Assembly (NCBI GenBank): GCA_002840155.1
Contig: PGZH01000001.1
Location: forward strand, 1-64,000
Source: Gammaproteobacteria bacterium HGW-Gammaproteobacteria-13
GTDB lineage: Bacteria; Pseudomonadota; Gammaproteobacteria; Pseudomonadales; Pseudomonadaceae
Direction of reading: 5' to 3'
DNA: 64,000 nucleotides
In this document: piece by piece, positions 3,069 to 64,000 of the stretch
Layout: every line of letters begins with the position of its first letter
How positions within the stretch are numbered: position 1 is the first letter of the stretch
The notes under the pieces: generated by a model
The model's input: only the letters and a program-made list of their open reading frames with translations
What the model was told of the DNA's origin: nothing
Databases searched by the model: none
Program-made: the position numbers and the translations under genes

Positions 3069-3401
3069 ATGGAAGTAGCCGCTAAGTTGTCGGGCGCTCG
3101 CATCTCCGCCCAGAAAGCCCGCTTGGTCGCCGACCAGATCCGCGGGAAGAAGGTGGGCGAAGCGCTCAACCTCCTGGCTTTCAGCAGTAAGAAAGCCGCC
3201 GAGATCATCAAGAAAGTGCTGGAGTCGGCTGTAGCCAACGCCGAGCACAACGAAGGCGCAGACGTTGATGACTTGAAGGTCAGCACCGTTTTCGTCAACG
3301 AAGGGCGTTCGCTGAAGCGCATCATGCCGCGTGCCAAAGGCCGCGCTGATCGCATCGTCAAGCGGTCTTGCCATATCACTGTCAAGGTTGCGGACAAGTA
3401 A
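3069..3401 (+). CDS. rplV: 50S ribosomal protein L22
   Basis: L22 lines the exit tunnel with its beta hairpin and is a macrolide-resistance locus. All 110 residues expected for Pseudomonas are present, ending H-I-T-V-K-V-A-D-K. The C-terminal hairpin (P-R-A-K-G-R-A-D-R) is intact. The start ATG at 3069 follows AAGGGGTAAGGAA. The gene itself is undamaged, but the sequence changes abruptly 9 bases after its stop, where the 5' end of rpsC should be. Confidence 0.96.
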
Positions 3402-3415
3402 CGGAGTCGATCAAG

Positions 3416-3988
3416 GTGCGTGAGTATCTCCAAGACAAACTAAAAAGCGCGTCCGTAAGCCGTATCGACATTGCTCGTCCGGCTCAAACTGCACGTATCA
3501 CCATCCACACCGCTCGTCCCGGTATCGTTATCGGTAAGAAAGGTGAAGATGTTGAGAAACTGCGTCAGGACCTGACCAAGCAAATGGGTGTGCCTGTGCA
3601 CATCAATATCGAAGAGATCCGCAAGCCGGAACTCGACGGTATGCTGGTTGCGCAGAGCGTAGCTCAGCAGCTGGAGCGTCGTGTGATGTTCCGTCGCGCC
3701 ATGAAGCGCGCTGTACAGAACGCCATGCGTATTGGTGCCAAGGGCATCAAAATCCAAGTGAGCGGTCGTCTCGGCGGTGCTGAAATTGCACGTACCGAAT
3801 GGTATCGCGAAGGTCGTGTGCCGTTGCACACCCTGCGTGCCGATATCGACTATGCCACGTACGAAGCGCACACCACTTACGGTGTGATCGGTGTCAAGGT
3901 TTGGATCTTCAAAGGCGAAGTAATCGGTGGCCTTAAAGAAGAACTGAAACCTCAAGCGCCTGCGCCTCGTAAAAAAGCTGCTAAGTAA
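3416..3988 (+). CDS. rpsC: 30S ribosomal protein S3, 5'-truncated
   Basis: S3 lies at the mRNA entry tunnel and contributes to helicase activity. Pseudomonas S3 has 228 residues starting MGQKVHPTGIRLG. Here the sequence runs from the rplV stop (3399-3401) through CGGAGTCGA straight into codons equivalent to K38-V39-R40, so about 37 N-terminal codons including the ATG are missing. The type-2 KH domain (V-I-G-K-K-G-E-D) and the C-terminal domain remain. GTG at 3416 is the first plausible start; it lies 9 bases after the retained GGAG and would give 190 residues. Loss of the N-terminal domain should disable an essential protein, so this is either an artefact or a broken copy. The identity is certain; the start is not. 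Confidence 0.85.
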
Positions 3989-4000
3989 GGAGTACGCAAA

Positions 4001-4414
4001 ATGTTGCAACCAAAGCGTACGAAGTTCCGTAAGCAGATGACCGGCCACAACCGTGGTCTGGCTCAGCGCGGTAGCAAAGTCAGCTTCGGCGAGTTTGCGC
4101 TGAAGTCTGTTGCCCGTGGTCGTCTCACCGCCCGTCAGATTGAGTCCGCTCGTCGTGCTCTGACTCGTCACGTTAAGCGTGGCGGGAAAATCTGGATTCG
4201 CGTCTTCCCGGACAAGCCGATCTCCAAGAAGCCTCTTGAAGTGCGGATGGGTAAAGGGAAGGGTAGCGTTGAATATTGGGTAGCCCAGATCCAGCCAGGC
4301 AAAGTCCTGTATGAGATCGAAGGCGTTTCCGAAGAGTTGGCGCGTGAGGCTTTTGCCCTGGCTGCTGCAAAGCTGCCGCTCGCCACCACTTTTGTTAAGC
4401 GGACGGTGATGTGA
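4001..4414 (+). CDS. rplP: 50S ribosomal protein L16
   Basis: L16 binds 23S rRNA close to the A-site tRNA elbow and is needed late in 50S assembly. The 137-residue product is full length, beginning [25 protein letters not shown] lies 8 bases upstream of ATG. Its TGA (4412-4414) shares one base with the rpmC ATG at 4414, so the two genes are translationally coupled. Confidence 0.97.
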
Positions 4415-4629
4415 TGAAGGCGAATGAACTTCGTGAAAAATCAGCACAGCAGCTGAACGAGCAACTGCTCGGCCTGCTGCGCGACCAGTTCAATCTGCGT
4501 ATGCAGAAAGCAACTGGCCAGTTGGGGCAGTCTCACCTGCTCTCGCAAGTTAAGCGCGACATCGCTCGTGTGAAAACTGTGCTCAACCAGCAGGCAGGTC
4601 ATCACCGTATTGATCGAGCGTCGCGTTAA
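4414..4629 (+). CDS. rpmC: 50S ribosomal protein L29 with aberrant C-terminus
   Basis: L29 is a small exit-port protein that contacts L23. Residues 1-62 ([10 protein letters not shown] ... TVLNQQAG) match Pseudomonas L29, which normally ends one residue later with Lys and a stop. After the GGT codon at 4597-4599 the normal AAG-stop is missing and the frame runs into rpsQ sequence out of frame, adding nine foreign residues (H-H-R-I-D-R-A-S-R) before TAA at 4627-4629. The join deletes the rpmC stop, the intergenic spacer and the rpsQ start. L29 itself could still function; the damage falls mainly on rpsQ. Confidence 0.88.
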
Positions 4630-4798
4630 GCACCCGATCTACGGCAAATATGTCAAGCGTTCGACCAAGCTGCACGCACACGACGAAACCAACCAGAGCA
4701 AGATCGGTGACAAAGTTTCCATTCGCGAAACTCGTCCCGTTGCCAAGACCAAGTCTTGGGCGCTGGTTGAGATCCTCGAACGCGCAGTGGACGTCTAA
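4610..4798 (+). CDS. rpsQ: 30S ribosomal protein S17, 5'-truncated
   Basis: S17 is a primary 16S rRNA-binding protein with an OB fold. Sequence homologous to S17 starts at about 4601 ([12 protein letters not shown]) and continues to the normal C-terminus, but the first 23 or so residues (family start MAEAEKTVRTLTGRVVSDK) are absent. The only in-frame start is a weak TTG at 4610, equivalent to codon 27, with no ribosome site. The missing part is the first strand of the OB fold. It lies between rpmC and rplN as expected. It is probably not functional as written. Confidence 0.8.
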
Positions 4799-4821
4799 GG
4801 GCTAAGGGTCGGAGAAATTAT

Positions 4822-5190
4822 ATGATTCAGACTCAATCCATGCTCGACGTCGCTGACAACAGCGGTGCTCGTCGCGTTATGTGTATCAAGGTGCTGGGCG
4901 GTTCGCACCGCCGTTATGCTGGCATCGGCGACATCATCAAAGTCACCGTTAAGGAAGCAATTCCGCGCGGTAAAGTGAAGAAAGGCCAAGTGATGACTGC
5001 TGTTGTAGTCCGCACTCGTCACGGCGTTCGTCGCCCTGATGGCTCGATCATTCGCTTTGATGGCAACGCTGCTGTTCTGCTGAACAACAAGCAAGAGCCA
5101 ATTGGCACTCGTATTTTTGGGCCAGTGACTCGTGAGCTTCGTACTGAGAAGTTCATGAAGATCGTCTCGCTCGCCCCTGAAGTGCTCTAA
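4822..5190 (+). CDS. rplN: 50S ribosomal protein L14
   Basis: L14 forms part of the subunit interface and binds release and silencing factors. The frame gives 122 residues, the universal bacterial length, beginning [20 protein letters not shown]. The conserved [12 protein letters not shown] motif lies at about residues 31-42. GGAG is 9 bases upstream of ATG. In E. coli rplN is the first gene of the spc operon; no promoter stands out in the 23-base gap here. Confidence 0.97.
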
Positions 5191-5201
5191 GGAGATCCGA
5201 C

Positions 5202-5516
5202 ATGCAAAAGATTCGTCGTGACGACGAGATCATCGTGATCGCCGGTAAAGACAAAGGTAAGCGTGGCAAGGTGCTCAAGGTTCTCGCTGACGACCGTTTG
5301 GTCGTTGGTGGGATCAACCTGGTGAAGCGCCATACCAAGCCGAACCCGATGTCGGGCGTTCAGGGCGGTATCGTCGAGAAAGAAGCGCCATTGCACGCTT
5401 CTAACGTGGCCATCTTCAATGGCGAAACCAACAAGGCTGACCGCGTTGGTTTCAAAGTAGAAGAAGGTAAAAAAATTCGTGTCTTCAAGTCGACCCAAAA
5501 AGCGGTTGATGCTTGA
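5202..5516 (+). CDS. rplX: 50S ribosomal protein L24
   Basis: L24 initiates 50S assembly and carries a KOW RNA-binding motif, visible here as [13 protein letters not shown] near residues 11-23. The 104-residue length is typical. The ATG at 5202 is preceded by AAGGAG with 8-base spacing. It sits 11 bases after rplN and 20 before rplE in spc-operon order. Confidence 0.97.
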
Positions 5517-5536
5517 ACACTGCTAGGTAGAAGACC

Positions 5537-6076
5537 ATGGCACGACTAAAAGAGATTTATCGGAAAGAAATCGCTCCCAAGCTAAAGGAAGAACTTAAGC
5601 TTGATAACGTGATGGAAGTTCCGCGCATCACCAAGATCACCCTTAACATGGGCCTGGGCGAAGCAATCGGTGACAAGAAAATCATCGAGCACGCTGTTGC
5701 CGACCTGGAAAAGATTACCGGTCAGAAAGTCGTTGTGACTCATGCCCGTAAGTCGATTGCAGGCTTCAAGGTTCGTGAGGGCTGGCCGATCGGCGTTAAA
5801 GTAACTCTGCGCCGTGAGCGTATGTACGAGTTCCTGGATCGTCTGCTGTCTATCTCCCTGCCGCGCGTGCGTGACTTCCGCGGCCTGAATGCCAAGTCCT
5901 TCGATGGTCGTGGCAACTACAGCATGGGCGTTAAAGAGCAGATCATCTTCCCGGAAATCGACTACGACAAGATCGATGCTCTGCGTGGTCTGGATATTAC
6001 CCTGACCACCACTGCCCGTACGGATGATGAAGGTCGCGCCTTGCTGCGTGCTTTCAAATTCCCGTTCCGCAACTGA
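5537..6076 (+). CDS. rplE: 50S ribosomal protein L5
   Basis: L5 anchors 5S rRNA in the central protuberance and forms intersubunit bridge B1b with S13. All 179 residues of the family are present, with the conserved N-M-G-L-G-E motif near residue 36 and R-D-F-R-G-L-N near residues 112-118. It is preceded by rplX and followed by rpsN after 13 bases. No anomaly is seen. Confidence 0.97.
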
Positions 6077-6089
6077 TTGGAGTTGGATC

Positions 6090-6395
6090 ATGGCCAAAAC
6101 CAGCATGAAAAACCGCGAGCTGAAGCGTCAGCAAACGGTAGCCAAGTACGCTAAGAAGCGTGCCGAGCTGAAAGCTACCATCGCCGATCTGAACGCCAGT
6201 CCAGAAGCGCGTTGGGCAGCACAAGTTGCACTGCAGAAGCAGCCGCGTGACGCCAGCGCTTCGCGCCTGCGTAATCGCTGCCGCATTACCGGTCGTCCGC
6301 ACGGCGTTTATCGCAAGTTCGGTCTGTCGCGTATCAAGCTGCGTGAAGCCGCAATGCGTGGTGATGTACCAGGTCTGGTTAAAGCCAGCTGGTAA
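6090..6395 (+). CDS. rpsN: 30S ribosomal protein S14
   Basis: S14 is a late-assembling 30S head protein. I place the start at ATG 6090 ([15 protein letters not shown]), preceded by GGAG, giving 101 residues; a longer in-frame reading from 6024 would overlap rplE and is not supported. This is the long zinc-independent type: the CxxC pairs of the short S14 are absent and the typical [11 protein letters not shown] motif is present. Unusually, two strong hairpins follow directly, ahead of rpsH. Confidence 0.96.
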
Positions 6396-6398
6396 AAA

Positions 6399-6425
6399 AC
6401 AAAGCCGGCCTAGTGCCGGCTTTGT
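6399..6425 (+). terminator. Rho-independent terminator after rpsN
   Basis: An 11-bp perfect stem (ACAAAGCCGGC, 5-base loop, GCCGGCTTTGT) starts 4 bases after the rpsN stop and is followed by a short T-containing stretch (CTTAT). It can end or attenuate spc transcription before rpsH. Confidence 0.75.
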
Positions 6426-6434
6426 CTTATCTGT

Positions 6435-6466
6435 GAATCAGGCCCCTTTGGGGCTTGATTCATTTT
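6435..6466 (+). terminator. Second hairpin terminator between rpsN and rpsH
   Basis: GAATCAGGCCCC and GGGGCTTGATTC form a 12-bp stem (one G-T pair) with a TTT loop at 6435-6461, followed by CATTTTT. Together with the hairpin at 6399 this makes a tandem terminator inside what is usually a continuous spc operon. Its right arm overlaps the -35 element of the promoter that follows. Confidence 0.7.
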
Positions 6467-6483
6467 TGATCAGTCTCTAGAAT
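6455..6483 (+). promoter_or_regulatory. Putative sigma-70 promoter for rpsH onward
   Basis: TTGATT (6455-6460) and TAGAAT (6478-6483) are separated by exactly 17 bases and lie about 95 bases upstream of rpsH. The -35 box sits in the descending arm of the preceding terminator hairpin. The same arrangement occurs before rpsM, which supports both. Confidence 0.6.
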
Positions 6484-6578
6484 GCTCGGCTCGCCTGAGC
6501 CTGGGTTCAATTTTTCTCAGAATTCTCAGCGACTGTAGCCGCAAGGCTAATTCTTTTTGTATCAGGAGCGTCTAGCCC

Positions 6579-6933
6579 ATGAGTATGCAGGACCCGTTAG
6601 CGGACATGCTAACTCGTATCCGTAATGCCCAGATGGCTGAAAAGTCCGTCCAAAGTTTTGAAAGACGAAGGTTATATTGCGGGTTATCAGATCAGCGGTG
6701 AAGTTAAGCCGCAGCTGTCCATCGAGCTGAAATACTTCGAAGGCCGTCCGGTTATCGAAGAAGTTAAGCGCGTGAGCCGTCCAGGCCTTCGCCAATACAA
6801 ATCCGTCGATGATCTGCCGAAAGTTCGTGGCGGTCTCGGTGTATCCATCGTCTCCACCAACAAGGGTGTGATGACGGACCGCGCTGCGCGCGCTGCCGGT
6901 GTCGGCGGCGAAGTGCTTTGCACAGTGTTCTAA
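6579..6933 (+). pseudogene. rpsH: 30S ribosomal protein S8, internally deleted and frameshifted
   Basis: S8 organises the central domain of 16S rRNA and represses spc translation in E. coli. The ATG at 6579 begins normally ([24 protein letters not shown]), then at 6650/6651 the sequence jumps to codons equivalent to K38-V39-L40. About 38 bases encoding residues 25-37 are missing and the frame shifts. From 6652 the second frame reads normally to the end (L-C-T-V-F, stop 6931-6933). Neither half makes a complete protein; the upstream frame meets a stop shortly after the join. Gene identity and position are secure. Confidence 0.88.
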
Positions 6934-6945
6934 GGGGGGATAAGC

Positions 6946-7479
6946 ATGTCTCGCGTTGCTAAGAACCCCGTAAAGCTGCCCGCTGGTGTTGAGATCAAAC
7001 TCGCCGGCCAACAGCTTTCGGTAAAGGGTGCCAAGGGCACTCTCGAACTGAACGTTCACTCGTCCGTTGAAGTTCTGCAAGAAGCTGGTGAGCTGCGTTT
7101 CGCTGCTCGCAATGGCGATCAGCAGACTCGTGCAATGGCCGGTACCACTCGCGCCCTGGTCAACAATATGGTGATCGGTGTTAGCACTGGCTTCGAGCGT
7201 AAGCTGCAGCTGGTTGGTGTTGGTTACAAAGCGCAAGCCAAAGGTCAGGTGCTGAACCTCGCTCTCGGCTTCTCCCATCCGATCGACTATGAGTTGCCGG
7301 ACGGTGTAGTTGCTGAAACCCCGAACCAGACCGAGATCCTGATCAAGGGTGTCGACAAACAACTGGTTGGTCAGGTCGCTGCGGAGATTCGTGACTTCCG
7401 TCGTCCTGAACCTTACAAGGGCAAAGGTGTTCGTTACGCTGACGAAGTCGTCCGCCGTAAAGAAGCCAAGAAGAAGTAG
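6946..7479 (+). CDS. rplF: 50S ribosomal protein L6
   Basis: L6 lies near the sarcin-ricin loop and the factor-binding site. The 177-residue product has two tandem L6 folds and the conserved C-terminal signature [11 protein letters not shown] near residues 155-165. GGGGG lies 8 bases upstream of ATG. It is undamaged between the broken rpsH and rplR. Confidence 0.97.
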
Positions 7480-7489
7480 GGCATAGCAA

Positions 7490-7840
7490 ATGACCGACAA
7501 AAAAGTTACTCGACTGCGTCGCGCTCGCAAAGCACGCCTGAAAATGCACGAGCTCGAAGCCGTGCGTCTCTGCGTGTATCGCTCTTCGCAGCACATCTAT
7601 GCCCAGGTCATTTCGGCCGACGGCAGCAAGGTTCTGGCCAGCGCCTCTACCTTGGACAAAGCACTGCGTGACGGCGCCACTGGCAACGTCGACGCGGCCA
7701 AGAAAGTTGGCGAGCTGGTTGCCGAGCGTGCGAAAGCCGCTGGTGTAACTCAGGTTGCATTCGACCGTTCTGGCTTCAAGTACCACGGCCGCGTCAAGGC
7801 GCTGGCTGATGCTGCTCGTGAAGGCGGGCTGGAGTTCTAA
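7490..7840 (+). CDS. rplR: 50S ribosomal protein L18
   Basis: L18 binds 5S rRNA together with L5 and L25. The product is 116 residues, full length, with the basic N-terminus ([21 protein letters not shown]) and the conserved [26 protein letters not shown] ending. Only three bases separate its stop from the rpsE ATG. Confidence 0.97.
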
Positions 7841-7843
7841 GTT

Positions 7844-8249
7844 ATGGCAAATAACGTTGACCGTGGTGGGTGATGGTAAGGGTCGCGTCGGTTTCGGCCG
7901 TGGCAAATCCCGTGAAGTGCCTGCTGCCATCCAGAAAGCGATGGAAGCTGCTCGTCGCAACATGATCCAGGTTGATCTGAACGGCACCACTCTGCAGTAC
8001 GCAATGAAGTCTGCTCATGGCGCCTCCAAGGTGTACATGCAGCCTGCTTCTGAAGGTACCGGCATCATCGCCGGCGGCGCTATGCGTGCCGTTCTGGAAG
8101 TGGCTGGCGTGCAGAACGTTCTGGCTAAGTGCTACGGCTCGACTAACCCAGTGAACGTGGTGTACGCCACTTTCAAAGGTTTGAAAGCTATGCAGTCGCC
8201 AGGTTCTGTTGCGGCTAAGCGTGGCAAGAGCGTCGAGGAGATTCTCTAA
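7844..8249 (+). pseudogene. rpsE: 30S ribosomal protein S5, 5' deletion with frameshift
   Basis: S5 governs decoding accuracy and mRNA entry. The true start ATG (7844, M-A-N-N) is present just after rplR, but four codons later the sequence jumps to codons equivalent to L37-T38-V39 (frame from 7857). Around 95 bases encoding residues 5-36 are gone and the frame shifts, so initiation at 7844 gives only M-A-N-N-V-D-R-G-G before a stop. From 7857 to the stop at 8247-8249 the rest of S5, including the second domain, is intact. The missing part covers much of the N-terminal double-stranded RNA-binding domain. Confidence 0.87.
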
Positions 8250-8251
8250 TC

Positions 8252-8431
8252 ATGGCTAATACCGTAAAAGTCACGCTGATCAAAAGCATGACCGGCCGTA
8301 TCCCCAACCATAAGCTCTGCGTTAAGGGTCTGGGTCTGCGTCGCATCGGTCACACCGTAGAAGTGCTGGATACTCCCGAGAATCGCGGGATGATCAACAA
8401 GGCTTACTACATGCTGCGAGTCGAGGGTTAA
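8252..8431 (+). CDS. rpmD: 50S ribosomal protein L30
   Basis: L30 is a small 50S protein with a ferredoxin-like fold. The frame from ATG 8252 gives 59 residues ([20 protein letters not shown] ... YYMLRVEG), the usual length, with the conserved T-L-I-K-S and G-L-G-L-R-R motifs. It starts two bases after the rpsE stop and ends three bases before rplO, the standard spc order. Confidence 0.95.
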
Positions 8432-8434
8432 TTC

Positions 8435-8869
8435 ATGTACCTGAACGATTTGAGTCCTGCGCCGGGTTCCCGTCGCGAGAAGCACCGTCCGGGCCGTGGT
8501 ATCGGTAGCGGTTTGGGTAAGACTGGTGGCCGCGGCCACAAAGGTCAGACCTCCCGCTCCGGTGGCACCATTGCTCCGGGTTTCGAAGGCGGCCAGCAGC
8601 CTCTGCACCGCCGTCTGCCTAAGTTCGGTTTCGTTTCTTTGAAGGCTATGGACCGCGCGCAAGTGCGTACCTCCGAGCTGAATAAAATCGAAGGCGGCAT
8701 TGTTACTCTGCAGTCGCTGAAGGATGCCAACCTGATCAACCAAAACGTACAGCGTGTGAAAGTCATGCTGAGCGGTGAAGTTACTCAGGCAGTCACCCTT
8801 AAAGGTATCGCCGTCACCAAAGGTGCGCGCGCGGCTATCGAAGCAGCTGGCGGTAAGTTCGAGGAATAA
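8435..8869 (+). CDS. rplO: 50S ribosomal protein L15
   Basis: L15 is a late-assembly 50S protein with an extended Gly/Arg-rich N-terminus, seen here as [19 protein letters not shown] near residues 21-40. The 144-residue length is normal. The stop TAA (8867-8869) directly abuts the secY ATG at 8870, coupling synthesis of L15 and the translocon channel. Confidence 0.97.
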
Positions 8870-10198
8870 ATGGCTAAGCAAGGTGCTCTCTCAGCGCTCA
8901 GCAATGGCGGGTTGTCCGAACTCTGGGCTCGTTTGCGCTTTCTGTTCATGGCGATCATCGTCTATCGGATAGGTGCACACATCCCAGTTCCAGGCATCAA
9001 CCCGGACCGGCTGGCGGACCTGTTTCGACAGAATGAGGGGACCATTCTTAGCTTGTTCAACATGTTTTCCGGCGGCGCGCTGGAGCGGATGAGCATTTTT
9101 GCACTGGGGATCATGCCGTACATCTCGGCATCGATCATCATGCAGCTCATGACCGCTGTCAGCCCGCAGCTGGAGCAGTTGAAGAAGGAAGGTGAAGCTG
9201 GCCGTCGCAAGATTAGCCAGTACACCCGCTACGGCACCCTCGTCCTGGCATTTGTCCAAGCCATCGGCATGTCCGTTGGTCTGGCCAGTCAGGGCGTAGC
9301 GTTTACGGTTGATTTCGGCTTCCACTTCGTTGCAGTCACCACCTTTGTGGCGGGTGCAATGTTCATGATGTGGCTGGGCGAGCAAATCACTGAGCGTGGT
9401 GTTGGCAACGGTATTTCGATGCTGATCTTTGCAGGCATCGTAGCCGGTCTGCCGTCGGCGATTGGGCAGTCTTTCGAGTCTGCTCGGCAGGGTGATATCA
9501 ATATCTTTGCCCTGATCGCCATCGGTTTGCTGGCAGTAGCGATTATCGGTTTCGTGGTGTTCATTGAGCGTGGTCAGCGTCGCATTGCGGTGCACTACGC
9601 CAAGCGTCAGCAGGGCCGTAAGGTCTTCGCTGCGCAGACCAGCCACTTGCCGTTGAAGGTGAACATGGCGGGGGTTATCCCGGCTATTTTCGCCAGCAGC
9701 CTTCTGTTATTCCCGGCTTCGCTGGGTGCCTGGTTCGGTCAGTCTGAAGGTATGGGCTGGCTGCAGGATATTTCACAGGCTATCGCTCCTGGTCAGCCGT
9801 TGAACATTTTGCTGTTTAGTGCAGGGATCGTTTTCTTCTGCTTCTTCTACACAGCGCTGATGTTCAACCCGAAAGACGTAGCGGAGAACCTGAAGAAGTC
9901 CGGTGCCTTTATTCCGGGTATCCGTCCCGGTGAGCAATCGGCGCGCTATATCGATGGCGTGTTGACTCGCTTGACCATGTTCGGTGCTCTGTACATGACG
10001 GCCGTATGCTTGTTGCCCCAGTTCCTGGTGGTGGCTGCCAACGTACCGTTCTATCTTGGCGGGACCTCGTTGCTGATCGTGGTAGTGGTTGTGATGGACT
10101 TTATGTCGCAAGTACAATCGCACCTCGTTTCGCACCAGTACGAATCCCTGATGAAGAAAGCCAACCTGAAGGGCTACGGCAGCGGCATGCTGCGCTGA
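8870..10198 (+). CDS. secY: Protein translocase subunit SecY
   Basis: SecY is the channel of the SecYEG translocon for export and membrane insertion. The 442-residue product shows ten hydrophobic segments; the first follows [11 protein letters not shown], and the plug and second segment include the [10 protein letters not shown] motif near residues 61-70. The cytoplasmic loop with E-R-G-Q-R-R-I (around residues 230-236) and the conserved [15 protein letters not shown] stretch are present. It is full length with no damage, unlike several neighbours, and is followed by rpmJ after 26 bases. Confidence 0.97.
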
Positions 10199-10224
10199 AG
10201 TCCATAAGGTTCGAGGAGTTGGTG

Positions 10225-10341
10225 ATGAAAGTTCGTGCATCGGTGAAAAAGCTGTGCCGTAACTGCAAGATTATCCGTCGCGAAGGTGTTGTTCGCGTGA
10301 TTTGCAGCTCGGAACCGCGTCACAAACAGCGCCAAGGCTGA
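10225..10341 (+). CDS. rpmJ: 50S ribosomal protein L36
   Basis: L36 is the smallest 50S protein. ATG 10225, preceded by GAGGAG, gives 38 residues ([20 protein letters not shown] ... RHKQRQG). The C-R-N-C pair, a third Cys and a His (P-R-H-K) form the zinc site of the zinc-binding type; zinc-starved bacteria often replace this form with a Cys-free paralogue. A reading that extends upstream into secY is not supported. It ends the spc operon here. Confidence 0.95.
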
Positions 10342-10360
10342 GTGTGAGTGAAGTTACAAG

Positions 10361-10400
10361 CCCGGCAGCTAGTGCGCTGCCGGGTTGATTATTTGTTTTT
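10361..10400 (+). terminator. Terminator between rpmJ and rpsM
   Basis: CCCGGCAGC and GCTGCCGGG form a 9-bp stem with a 6-base loop (10361-10384), followed by an AT-rich stretch ending GTTTTT (to 10400). It marks the spc/alpha operon boundary. Confidence 0.75.
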
Positions 10401-10413
10401 ACAGCGTTAATAT
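10385..10413 (+). promoter_or_regulatory. Putative sigma-70 promoter of the alpha operon
   Basis: TTGATT (10385-10390), a 17-base spacer and TAATAT (10408-10413) lie immediately after the terminator stem and about 60 bases upstream of rpsM. The -35 hexamer is identical to that of the promoter before rpsH. Confidence 0.6.
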
Positions 10414-10472
10414 CTCGCGCCCTATTTCTTGGCTTCCGGGGCGTAGGTAGCTGTCAATTGGAGTTCCACTGA

Positions 10473-10820
10473 ATGGCCCGTATTGCAGGCGTTAACAACA
10501 AGCACACTGTTATCTCGTTGACCTACATCTATGGTGTTGGTCGCACAACTGCACAGAAAGTCTGTGCTGCCGCCGGCGTTAATCCGGCTGCAAAGATCAA
10601 AGATCTCTCTGACGAGCAGATCGAGCAGCTGCGTGGCGAAGTAGCCAAGGTGAATACCGAAGGCGACCTGCGTCGTGAAGTGAACATGAAAATCAAGCGC
10701 TTGATGGACCTGGGTTGCTACCGCGGCCTGCGTCATCGTCGTGGTCTGCCGGTTCGCGGTCAGCGTACCAAGACCAACGCGCGTACCCGTAAGGGCCCGC
10801 GTAAGCCGATCCGCAAGTAA
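10473..10820 (+). CDS. rpsM: 30S ribosomal protein S13 with a 3-residue deletion
   Basis: S13 contacts the P-site tRNA and makes bridges to L5 and 23S rRNA. The product has 115 residues against 118 in Pseudomonas relatives. The N-terminus reads [12 protein letters not shown] where the family has [15 protein letters not shown], so nine bases encoding I-P-D are missing in frame at 10496/10497. The rest, including the basic C-terminal tail [12 protein letters not shown], is intact. GGAG lies well upstream of ATG. The I-P motif is conserved across bacteria, so the deletion is suspicious though less destructive than those in rpsH, rpsE and rpoA. Confidence 0.94.
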
Positions 10821-10850
10821 TCGCATTCGCGCATCGACAGGAATCTAGTC

Positions 10851-11240
10851 ATGGCAAAACCTGCTGCTCGTACTCGTAAGAAAGTCAAAAAGACGGTGGT
10901 TGATGGCATCGCCCACATCCACGCCTCTTTCAACAACACAATCGTGACCATTACTGACCGTCAGGGCAACGCCCTGTCCTGGGCTACCTCTGGTGGTTCG
11001 GGTTTCCGCGGCTCGCGTAAAAGCACCCCGTTCGCCGCCCAGGTGGCTGCAGAACGTGCTGGTCAAGCTGCGCTGGAATACGGTCTGAAGAACCTCGACG
11101 TAAACGTCAAGGGTCCAGGTCCGGGTCGTGAGTCCGCTGTCCGTGCATTGAACGGCTGTGGCTATAAGATCGCCAGCATCACCGATGTGACGCCCATCCC
11201 GCATAACGGGTGCCGTCCTTCGAAGAAGCGTCGCGTGTAA
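10851..11240 (+). CDS. rpsK: 30S ribosomal protein S11
   Basis: S11 forms the 30S platform and contacts the Shine-Dalgarno helix. The 129-residue product is complete, with the conserved [11 protein letters not shown] near residues 25-35 and [11 protein letters not shown] at the end. It sits between rpsM and rpsD, the alpha-operon order. Confidence 0.97.
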
Positions 11241-11257
11241 TCAGGAGACAGTGAGAA

Positions 11258-11878
11258 ATGGCTCGTTACATTGGTCCCAAATGCAAACTGTCTCGTCGTG
11301 AAGGCACAGATCTTTTCCTGAAAAGCGGTGTACGCGCTCTGGAATCGAAGTGCAACATCGAAGCAGCCCCAGGTATTCACGGTCAGCGCCGTGGCCGTCA
11401 GTCCGACTACGGCACCCAGCTGCGTGAGAAGCAAAAAGTTCGTCGTATCTACGGTGTGCTTGAGCGTCAATTCAGCGGTTATTACAAAGAAGCTGCCGGC
11501 AAGAAAGGCGCTACTGGTGAGAACCTGCTGCAACTGCTCGAGTGCCGTCTGGATAACGTGGTTTACCGCATGGGCTACGGCGCTACTCGCGCTGAATCCC
11601 GTCAGCTGGTATCGCACAAGTCGATCAGCGTAAACGGTAAAACTGTCAACGTACCGTCCTACCAGGTTAAAGCTGGTGACGTTGTTGCAGTCCGCGAGAA
11701 ATCGAAGAATCAGCTGCGCATTGTTCAAGCTCTTGAGCTGTGTGCCCAGCGTGGCCGCGTTGAATGGGTAGAAGTAGACACTGAGAAGAAGTCTGGCGTG
11801 TTCAAAAACGTCCCGGCGCGCAGTGATCTCTCCGCTGACATCAACGAAAGCCTGATTGTCGAGCTCTACTCCAAGTAA
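11258..11878 (+). CDS. rpsD: 30S ribosomal protein S4
   Basis: S4 initiates 16S 5'-domain assembly and in E. coli represses the alpha operon by binding its leader pseudoknot. The 206-residue product is full length, beginning [19 protein letters not shown]. The S4 RNA-binding domain ([13 protein letters not shown]) spans about residues 95-160. AGGAG lies 9 bases upstream of ATG. rpoA follows after 22 bases. Confidence 0.97.
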
Positions 11879-11900
11879 GGGCTAGAAAATAGGTGCATCC

Positions 11901-12832
11901 ATGCAGATTTCGGTAAATGAGTTCCTGACCCCCCGTCACATTGATGTCATACCCTGGGCAACGCGCTGCGTCGCATCCTGTTGTCCTCCATGCCTGGCTG
12001 TGCAGTAGTCGAGGCCGAGATTGACGGTGTACTCCATGAGTACAGCGCCATCGAAGGTGTTCAGGAAGACGTCATTGAAATCCTGCTCAACCTGAAAGGT
12101 CTGGCTGTCAAACTGCACGGTCGTGACGAAGTGACGTTGACTCTGGCGAAGAAGGGCTCGGGCGTAGTTACCGCTGCCGATATTCAGCTGGATCACGATG
12201 TCGAAATCGTCAATGGCGACCACGTAATCGCCAACCTGGCTTCCACTGGCGCGCTGAACATGAAGCTCACCATAGCTCGTGGTCGCGGCTATGAGCCGGC
12301 TGATGCTCGTCAGAGCGATGAAGACGAAAGCCGCAGCATTGGTCGCTTGCAGCTGGATGCTTCGTTCAGCCCGGTACGCCGTGTGTCGTACGTGGTGGAA
12401 AACGCTCGTGTTGAGCAGCGTACTAACCTGGACAAACTGGTCATTGACCTGGAGACCAACGGTACTCTGGACCCTGAAGAGGCTATTCGCCGCGCTGCAA
12501 CCATTCTGCAACAGCAGTTGGCTGCGTTCGTCGACCTTAAAGGTGACAGTGAGCCTGTTGTTATCGAGCAGGAAGATGAGATCGATCCGATCCTCCTCCG
12601 TCCGGTTGATGACCTGGAGCTGACTGTACGTTCGGCTAACTGCCTCAAGGCAGAGAACATTTACTACATCGGCGATCTGATTCAGCGCACCGAAGTAGAA
12701 CTGTTGAAAACGCCGAACCTGGGCAAGAAATCCCTGACCGAAATCAAGGATGTTCTGGCTTCTCGCGGTCTGTCCCTCGGTATGCGCCTCGACAACTGGC
12801 CGCCGGCAAGTCGTCATCATCACCGAACGTGA
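11901..12832 (+). pseudogene. rpoA: RNA polymerase alpha subunit, deletions at both ends
   Basis: Alpha dimerises to nucleate RNA polymerase and its C-terminal domain binds UP elements and activators. ATG 11901 starts normally ([16 protein letters not shown]), but at 11947/11948 the sequence jumps to codons for H37-T-L-G-N-A-L-R-R. About 61 bases are lost and the frame shifts, so translation from 11901 stops soon after. The second frame from 11948 carries the rest of the N-terminal domain and an intact C-terminal domain (helix-hairpin motif [12 protein letters not shown]). At the 3' end D-N-W-P-P-A-S runs into R-H-H-H-R-T and a stop, where Pseudomonas alpha has L-K-K-D-D-K-A-T-A. Two separate deletions in one essential gene point to an artefact. 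Confidence 0.9.
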
Positions 12833-12852
12833 GTTTGGTAAGGAATTGAACC

Positions 12853-16756: not shown

Positions 16757-16891
16757 AAACAACGGCCTCGCATGGCGGGCGGAAAACCACCGAGTATACG
16801 GGCCCGAAGGCGGGCGCGGCAAAGCGTCACTGCTGTGCCGCGCTCATTCAGTGCTGCTAGAATCGCCGCCTATTTCGACAGGGCATTTTCC

Positions 16892-60600: not shown

Positions 60601-62438
<1,838 letters not shown>

Positions 62439-64000
62439 ATGCGTTCTGGGGCGGGTCGGTTGGTGGCAGCGCGCGCTGTTGTGCTGAGGTGTTTACGCCG
62501 TCCCTGGCTGGTTATTGCGCTGTGCCTGCTGCTGATTCTGGCGCTGGCCGACCGGCTATTTCCGTTGCCGTTACCAGGCGATGACCTGGCCCGTGTGGTG
62601 CTGGCCGAGGACGGTGCGCCGCTGTGGCGCTTTGCCGACCATGATGGCGTATGGCGCTATCCGGTCAGCCCCAGTGAGGTGTCGCCCTATTACCTGGACG
62701 CGCTGCTGACCTACGAGGACCGCTGGTTCTATCAGCACCCCGGAGTCAACCCGCTGGCCCTGGGCCGCGCGGCCTGGCAGAACCTCAGTGGCGGGCGTGT
62801 GCTGTCGGGTGGCAGCACGCTGTCGATGCAGGTGGCGCGCCTGCTGGATCCGCATGCGCGCAGCTATAGCGGCAAGCTCAAGCAACTGTGGCGCACGCTG
62901 CAGCTGGAGTGGCACCTGTCCAAGGATGAAATCCTTACCCTCTACCTCAATCGCGCGCCCTTTGGCGGCACGCTGCAAGGCGTGGCGGCGGCCAGCTGGG
63001 CCTATCTGGGCAAGTCGCCGAGCCAGCTGACCCGCGCCGAGGCGGCATTGCTGGCGGTACTGCCACAAGCGCCCAGCCGTTTGCGCCCGGATCGTCACCC
63101 TGAACGTGCCCAGGCAGCTCGTGACAAAGTGCTCAACCGCCTGGCCAGTTTCGAGGTATGGCCGCAGTCGGCGATCAACGATGCGCTGGAGGAACCGGTT
63201 TTGCTGGCTCCACGGCAGGAGCCACGCCTGGCGCCGCTGCTGGCGCGGCGCCTTAACACCCGCGGCAGTCCGCCACTGATTCGTACGACTATCGATGCCG
63301 CCTTGCAGCGCCGTCTGGAAGACCTGCTGCTGGGTTGGCGTGCGCGGCTACCGGAGCGTACCTCGGCGGCGATTCTGGTGGTCGAGCAGCCAAGCATGGC
63401 GGTGCGTGCCTACCTGGGCTCGGTGGATATCGGCGACGCCAAGCGCTTTGGCCATGTCGACATGATCAACGCCGTGCGCTCGCCCGGCTCGACCCTGAAG
63501 CCCTTTCTTTACGGCATGGCGCTGGATGAAGGGCTGATCCATTCCGAGTCGCTGCTGCAGGACGTGCCACGGCGTTATGGCGATTATCGACCGGGCAACT
63601 TTGCCGCCGGCTTCAGCGGGGCAGTGTCCGCCAGTGAGGCGCTGGCTACGTCCTTGAATCTGCCGGCTGTGCAACTGTTGGAGGCTTACGGGCCGAAGCG
63701 TTTTGCCGGTGAGCTGCGCAGCGCCGGGGTGCCCTTGCTGCTGCCGCCGTTGGCCGAGCCTAACCTGGCGCTGATTCTCGGCGGCGCCGGCAGCCGCCTG
63801 GAGGAACTGGTCAGCGGTTACAGCGCCTTTGCCCGTGGCGGCATGGCCGCGCGTCTGCGGTTTCAGCCGCAGGATGGGCTGCATGAGCGGCGCTTGCTGT
63901 CGCCCGGTTCGGCGTGGATTGTGCGGCGTATTCTCAGCGGCTAGGCGCGCCCGGATCGCGATCCGCGTGCGCAGTTGGTGCAGCGCCCGACCCTCGCCTG
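62439..64000 (+). pseudogene. pbpC: Penicillin-binding protein 1C, interrupted by an amber codon (3' end outside window)
   Basis: PbpC is a class A peptidoglycan synthase often encoded with alpha-2-macroglobulin. ATG 62439 (MRSGAGRLVAARAVVLRCLR) has GAGAGAGG upstream. After a membrane anchor (about residues 27-45) comes the transglycosylase (E-D-R-W-F-Y-Q-H-P-G-V; G-G-S-T-L-S-M-Q). The transpeptidase starts with S-T-L-K (S-P-G-S-T-L-K-P-F) and S-L-N. TAG at 63942-63944 stops the frame at 501 residues, yet the same frame continues beyond it with family-like sequence (A-R-P-D-R-D-P-R-A) to the window end. The K-T-G motif lies further on. A single change or a sequencing error at this codon would explain it; full-length PbpC has about 770 residues. 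Confidence 0.85.

Follow-up and report, generated by a model that had tools for sequence, protein, structure and literature searches.

Duplicated and reduced bacterial genomes undergo pseudogene decay, with frameshifts and truncations in genes that are normally essential. Misassembled gaps usually sit at repeats, such as rRNA genes or mobile elements. In assemblies of mixed DNA, related species contribute homologous genes that behave as repeats and give rise to gene fragments, as described in the available part of PMC3436815.

The window analysed here comprises the first 64,000 nucleotides of its contig (C3). Its S10-spc-alpha cluster shows seven deletions in genes for ribosomal proteins and an RNA polymerase subunit. 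We are highly confident that these deletions are assembly artefacts and not features of the cell's DNA.

Deletions in the ribosomal protein cluster

We aligned the window to six genomes of the same genus and to the sister genome G264. The deletions total 423 bases and fall in rpsC, rpmC/rpsQ, rpsH, rpsE, rpsM and, twice, in rpoA (Table 1). Their sizes are constant, and all seven aligned genomes (6/6 of the genus and the sister) are intact at each of the seven sites. The preliminary description, made from the window alone, had reported seven short deletions in these genes, within a single-copy locus of normal gene order. Both statements were borne out: the deletions span 9-113 bases with the same size against 7/7 genomes, the gene order is normal, and one copy is readable. 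The gene names of the cluster are those that we presume from the proteins and from the order in E. coli. From the S3 protein of the cluster, we presume that the genus is Pseudomonas.

Table 1. Position and extent of the deletions in the window and on other contigs. Positions on C3 are those of the window.
Feature	Contig	Position	Strand	Description
S10-spc-alpha cluster (rpsJ 3' part to rplQ)	C3	1..13239	+	One readable copy, bears all seven joins
rpsC join	C3	3412..3413	+	Blunt, 113 bases gone; 2 spacer bases, start codon and remainder of first 37 codons
rpmC/rpsQ join	C3	4599..4600	+	Blunt, 76 bases gone; rpmC end and rpsQ start
rpsH join	C3	6649..6650	+	Blunt, 38 bases gone; frameshift
rpsE join	C3	7854..7855	+	Blunt, 95 bases gone close to gene start; frameshift
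rpsM join	C3	10496..10497	+	Blunt, 9 bases gone; in frame, three residues
rpoA first join	C3	11947..11948	+	Blunt, 61 bases gone close to gene start; frameshift
rpoA second join	C3	12810..12811	+	Blunt, 31 bases gone; final codons and stop
rpoB	C15			Two deletions, 61 and 70 bases
rpoC	C15			One deletion, 73 bases
atpG (presumed name)	C22			One deletion, 38 bases
atpD	C22			One deletion, 28 bases
sucC	C16			One deletion, 207 bases, in frame

The sister genome is 98.75% identical to the window (141 substitutions in 11,290 columns). Over these 11.3 kb, the only indels are the seven deletions and one single-base gap. Because the alignment holds no further indels bar this single base, ordinary divergence does not explain the deletions. 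Against the six less close genomes, small spacer differences also appear, at 299, 372, 6396, 10199 and 12831. The rpsC junction was the sole junction searched genus-wide. Allowing at most 2 mismatches, it is present in one of 398 same-genus genomes, which is its own.

Beyond the cluster, parts of the region from 14.5 to 51.8 kb could be aligned to two relatives, with 67-84% identity. The aligned pieces contain gaps of 4-39 bases; the largest of them, near 16763, 27279 and 36486, fall at the ends of long open frames or past them. The gene pbpC (window 62403-63944, continuing to C3:64808) lies near a bacterial alpha-2-macroglobulin gene. The stop previously noted in it was confirmed as a single in-frame TAG at 63942-63944, after which the frame runs on for 287 codons. 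This lesion differs in kind from the deletions, and it could be either a real nonsense change or a base error.

The contig of the window begins inside rpsJ. Contigs C15 and C25 share the same terminal 60 bases, inside tuf. From these ends, the duplicated tuf gene seems to be where the contigs break.

Lesions on other contigs and form of the joins

Six further deletions of the same type were found on three other contigs (C15, C22 and C16). The genome thus carries at least 13 lesions on four contigs, which amount to 900 bases with sizes of 9-207. All 13 affect slowly evolving, essential or central genes. One of these genes, on C22, we take to be atpG from its place between atpA and atpD. The deletions had been described as confined to the ribosomal protein cluster. 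Genome-wide this fails, with rpoB (two), rpoC, atpG, atpD and sucC also hit. Because clean holes of the same kind cut vital genes elsewhere in the assembly, those of the window are almost certainly assembly mistakes.

Some indels of the sister comparison were left out of the 13, on the ground of type mismatch or edge position. On C3 this concerns the single-base gap; on C22, a gap of 2 bases together with extra stretches of 6, 4 and 1 bases; and on C16, extra stretches of 15 and 1 bases, as well as a gap of 68 bases at the extreme alignment end (reverse-strand position 8903 of 9000).

The scan for conserved genes used 455 mechanically called E. coli K-12 open frames, some of them antisense or spurious. 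It covered 2,080,686 of the 4,545,609 bases, 12,755 of them N. At a threshold of at least 45% identity and at least 40 residues, 94 frames matched. Ninety did so in one piece and four were split: rpoB, rpoC and two antisense frames inside the ribosomal cluster. A one-piece match is compatible with truncation, and rpoA, rpsC, rpsE, rpsQ and sucC are among those that stop short. The atpG and atpD lesions came from a separate search. The remaining half of the genome may hold further lesions.

A different observation concerns recA, which is split at C23:17206-18472. After ~70 codons, the gene gives way to other sequence with a stop. Next come 48 N, followed by a recA part of higher divergence that starts at codon ~47. 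This looks like an inserted element that brought its own 3' part and is mostly absent from the assembly.

The 13 joins are blunt. They share 0-2 bases, with a mean of 0.77 against 0.65 for random blunt cuts, so breakpoint homology was rejected as a cause. Base composition was also rejected, since the missing pieces have an unremarkable GC content. Only 2 of the 13 lengths are multiples of three and keep the frame, and the other 11 break it. Across the 13 joins, then, neither lesion length nor frame was under selection, and no breakpoint was driven by homology.

Elsewhere, the assembly holds N runs of 6, 48, 73, 89 and 140 bases, which represent scaffold gaps or masked stretches. Stripping of N from scaffold gaps was rejected as a simple general cause, because these runs survive. 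For the same reason, a blunt join free of N needs its own reason. That parts of the genome read as N might also suggest that the holes arose later than the assembly itself, at submission or when a copy was prepared. We consider this very unlikely, as masked stretches read as N, whereas the holes are blunt and N-free. The N runs at C16:284544, C17:390674 and C17:396460 adjoin repeats, which presumably resemble integron attC sites. The two on C17 have identical 60-base flanks.

Gene decay and copy number

Compared with the sister, the lesioned genes of the window show 23 silent differences, 1 amino-acid-changing difference and no new stops. The 15 intact open reading frames show 95 silent and 6 changed (rplV and rpmJ were left out, and rplB was counted in part). 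Outside the holes, the lesioned window genes are under strong purifying selection. Against the sister, there were no signs of pseudogene decay, whether relaxed selection, extra stops, or indels above 1 base besides the holes.

We searched the intact cluster of a relative against the 26 contigs of the assembly. Within the readable assembly it matched this locus only, with no second cluster; the sixth match, on C11, concerns sequence beyond the cluster. Likewise, the missing pieces were not found elsewhere in the readable assembly, and no second intact match was obtained for rpoC or atpD. Eight contigs of 1.0-2.6 kb (C1, C2, C5, C6, C10, C12, C13 and C14; 12,399 bases) read wholly as N.

These results bear on the possibility that the deletions are real, in a decaying cluster whose proteins are supplied by an intact second set. 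The deletions are present in the sequence as given, and the eight unreadable contigs leave some room for such a set. Nevertheless, none of these contigs is nearly long enough for a 13-kb cluster, and neither a second cluster nor any missing piece appears in what can be read. The 23 silent against 1 changed difference, with no new stop and no other indel above 1 base, also argues against decay, and for rpoC and atpD, too, no second intact match turned up. We therefore regard this explanation as highly improbable. Both a second ribosomal cluster and extreme decay had been named as what real deletions would imply. The search for another rpsJ-rplQ cluster that had been proposed gave no second copy in the readable assembly, and the sister comparison gave no sign of decay.

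Real and recent deletions might, in principle, be survived by bypass, by assembly of proteins in trans, or by restoring the sequence in RNA. We found nothing positive in favour of this. Together, RpoA, RpoB, RpoC, S3, S5, S8 and S17 lose start codons, frames and core regions, all but 2 of the 13 lengths disrupt the frame, and the rpsC junction is absent from 397 of the 398 same-genus genomes. This explanation is hardly conceivable. Damage to RpoA, RpoB, RpoC and several ribosomal proteins all at once is known to be lethal, and no cell would survive the losses seen here. More generally, it is extremely improbable that the DNA is truly short and that ribosomes and RNA polymerase are made by restoration after the DNA level or from unseen second copies.

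In sum, wrong joins in a conserved, strain-variable region, which the preliminary description had preferred over biology, are supported by the one readable copy, the blunt and frame-blind joins, the purifying selection and the same type of lesion in further slowly evolving essential genes on other contigs. The graph bubbles or contig ends that it named would be one candidate form of these joins.

Shared flanks and the origin of the holes

How the pieces were lost is less certain than the artefact itself. We give an about even chance to a collapse within sequence blocks that the genome has in common with related DNA among the reads. In this view, related strains or species would also have contributed DNA to the reads. 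Wherever related genomes are identical over long distances, the assembly graph would tangle or unique read support would vanish. The contigs on the two sides would then be abutted directly, and the middle of the common stretch would disappear without any N being written.

The flanks of the joins were compared with those of relatives. Against the six relatives, the longest exact flank averages 75.9 over the seven window joins, compared with 30.4 (sd 8.9) at random places of the cluster, and none of 2000 draws was as high. Against the sister, the left flanks of the 13 joins reach a mean percentile of 0.80 (p = 0.0007) and are unusually well shared. On the right, the mean percentile of 0.54 (p = 0.59) is not unusual, which counts against the collapse. 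So does the both-flank sharing over 20 genomes, most of them partial, where 83.9 lies only slightly above the 59.9 of random places (p = 0.16). At all seven window joins, some relative is identical over 47 or more bases both to the left and to the right, although random places come close (p = 0.16). For rpsC, both flanks (62 and 51 bases) are exact around the 113-base middle in 8 of the 398 genus genomes. Judged from sequence, these flank results would fit a loss inside stretches shared with related DNA, without proving it. The whole state of other conserved genes, which we take to be fusA, typA, lepA, infB and atpA from their size, also counts against this route.

Further points against the collapse are the N runs elsewhere in the assembly and the conservation of the missing pieces themselves. 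Within the genus, these pieces are only weakly more conserved than the clusters around them. Random draws were as high in a fraction of 0.06-0.16 for C3 and 0.13-0.40 for C15. Toward E. coli, they are not more conserved (mean percentile 0.59, p = 0.34, a value in which 2 of the 13 intervals are unsound: one rpoB interval was placed as 268 and not 70 bases, and the uncovered rpoA end was counted as 0). On this same result, a taxonomy-based read filter that loses the pieces most conserved across genera is unsupported. The lesioned genes as a whole evolve slowly at the DNA level.

Another artefact route would not require a tangled graph. Positions without unique or accepted reads may have been dropped, with a mapping-quality filter, read decontamination or consensus calling as candidate steps. 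Blunt ends free of overlap are what this route would produce, and the lesions sit in genes easily common to other organisms. However, it is not evident that the most conserved parts of the clusters are the ones missing. We consider dropped positions possible but rather unlikely. Under either route the deletions would remain errors of the assembly.

The holes are an ordinary artefact, not a real feature, and have no biological importance. Their value is as a warning. The assembly is listed as 99.95% complete with 0.13% contamination, and this completeness score hides holes without N in rpoA, rpoB, rpoC and a number of ribosomal protein genes. Phylogenetic trees, typing and completeness scores commonly rely on the affected genes, and such holes would be mistaken for frameshifts, gene loss or fast evolution.

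In a literature search, the available parts of the sources contained nothing that we recognised as this pattern beyond general misassembly. The locus resembles pseudogene decay in its frameshifts and truncations of normally essential genes. It differs in having no new stops, no relaxed selection and no readable second copy. The misassembled gap regions of bacterial drafts, as treated in the available part of PMC6841979, are similar in that draft gaps can mislead on gene content. Here, in contrast, the lesions fall in genes with one readable copy. Our proposed collapse is similar in kind to gene fragmentation in mixed DNA, where, according to the accessible text of PMC3436815, conserved genes are broken at sequence that related genomes share. 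Instead of remaining as small contigs, the flanks of this locus are blunt-joined within one long contig, and the mixing of reads is what we infer.
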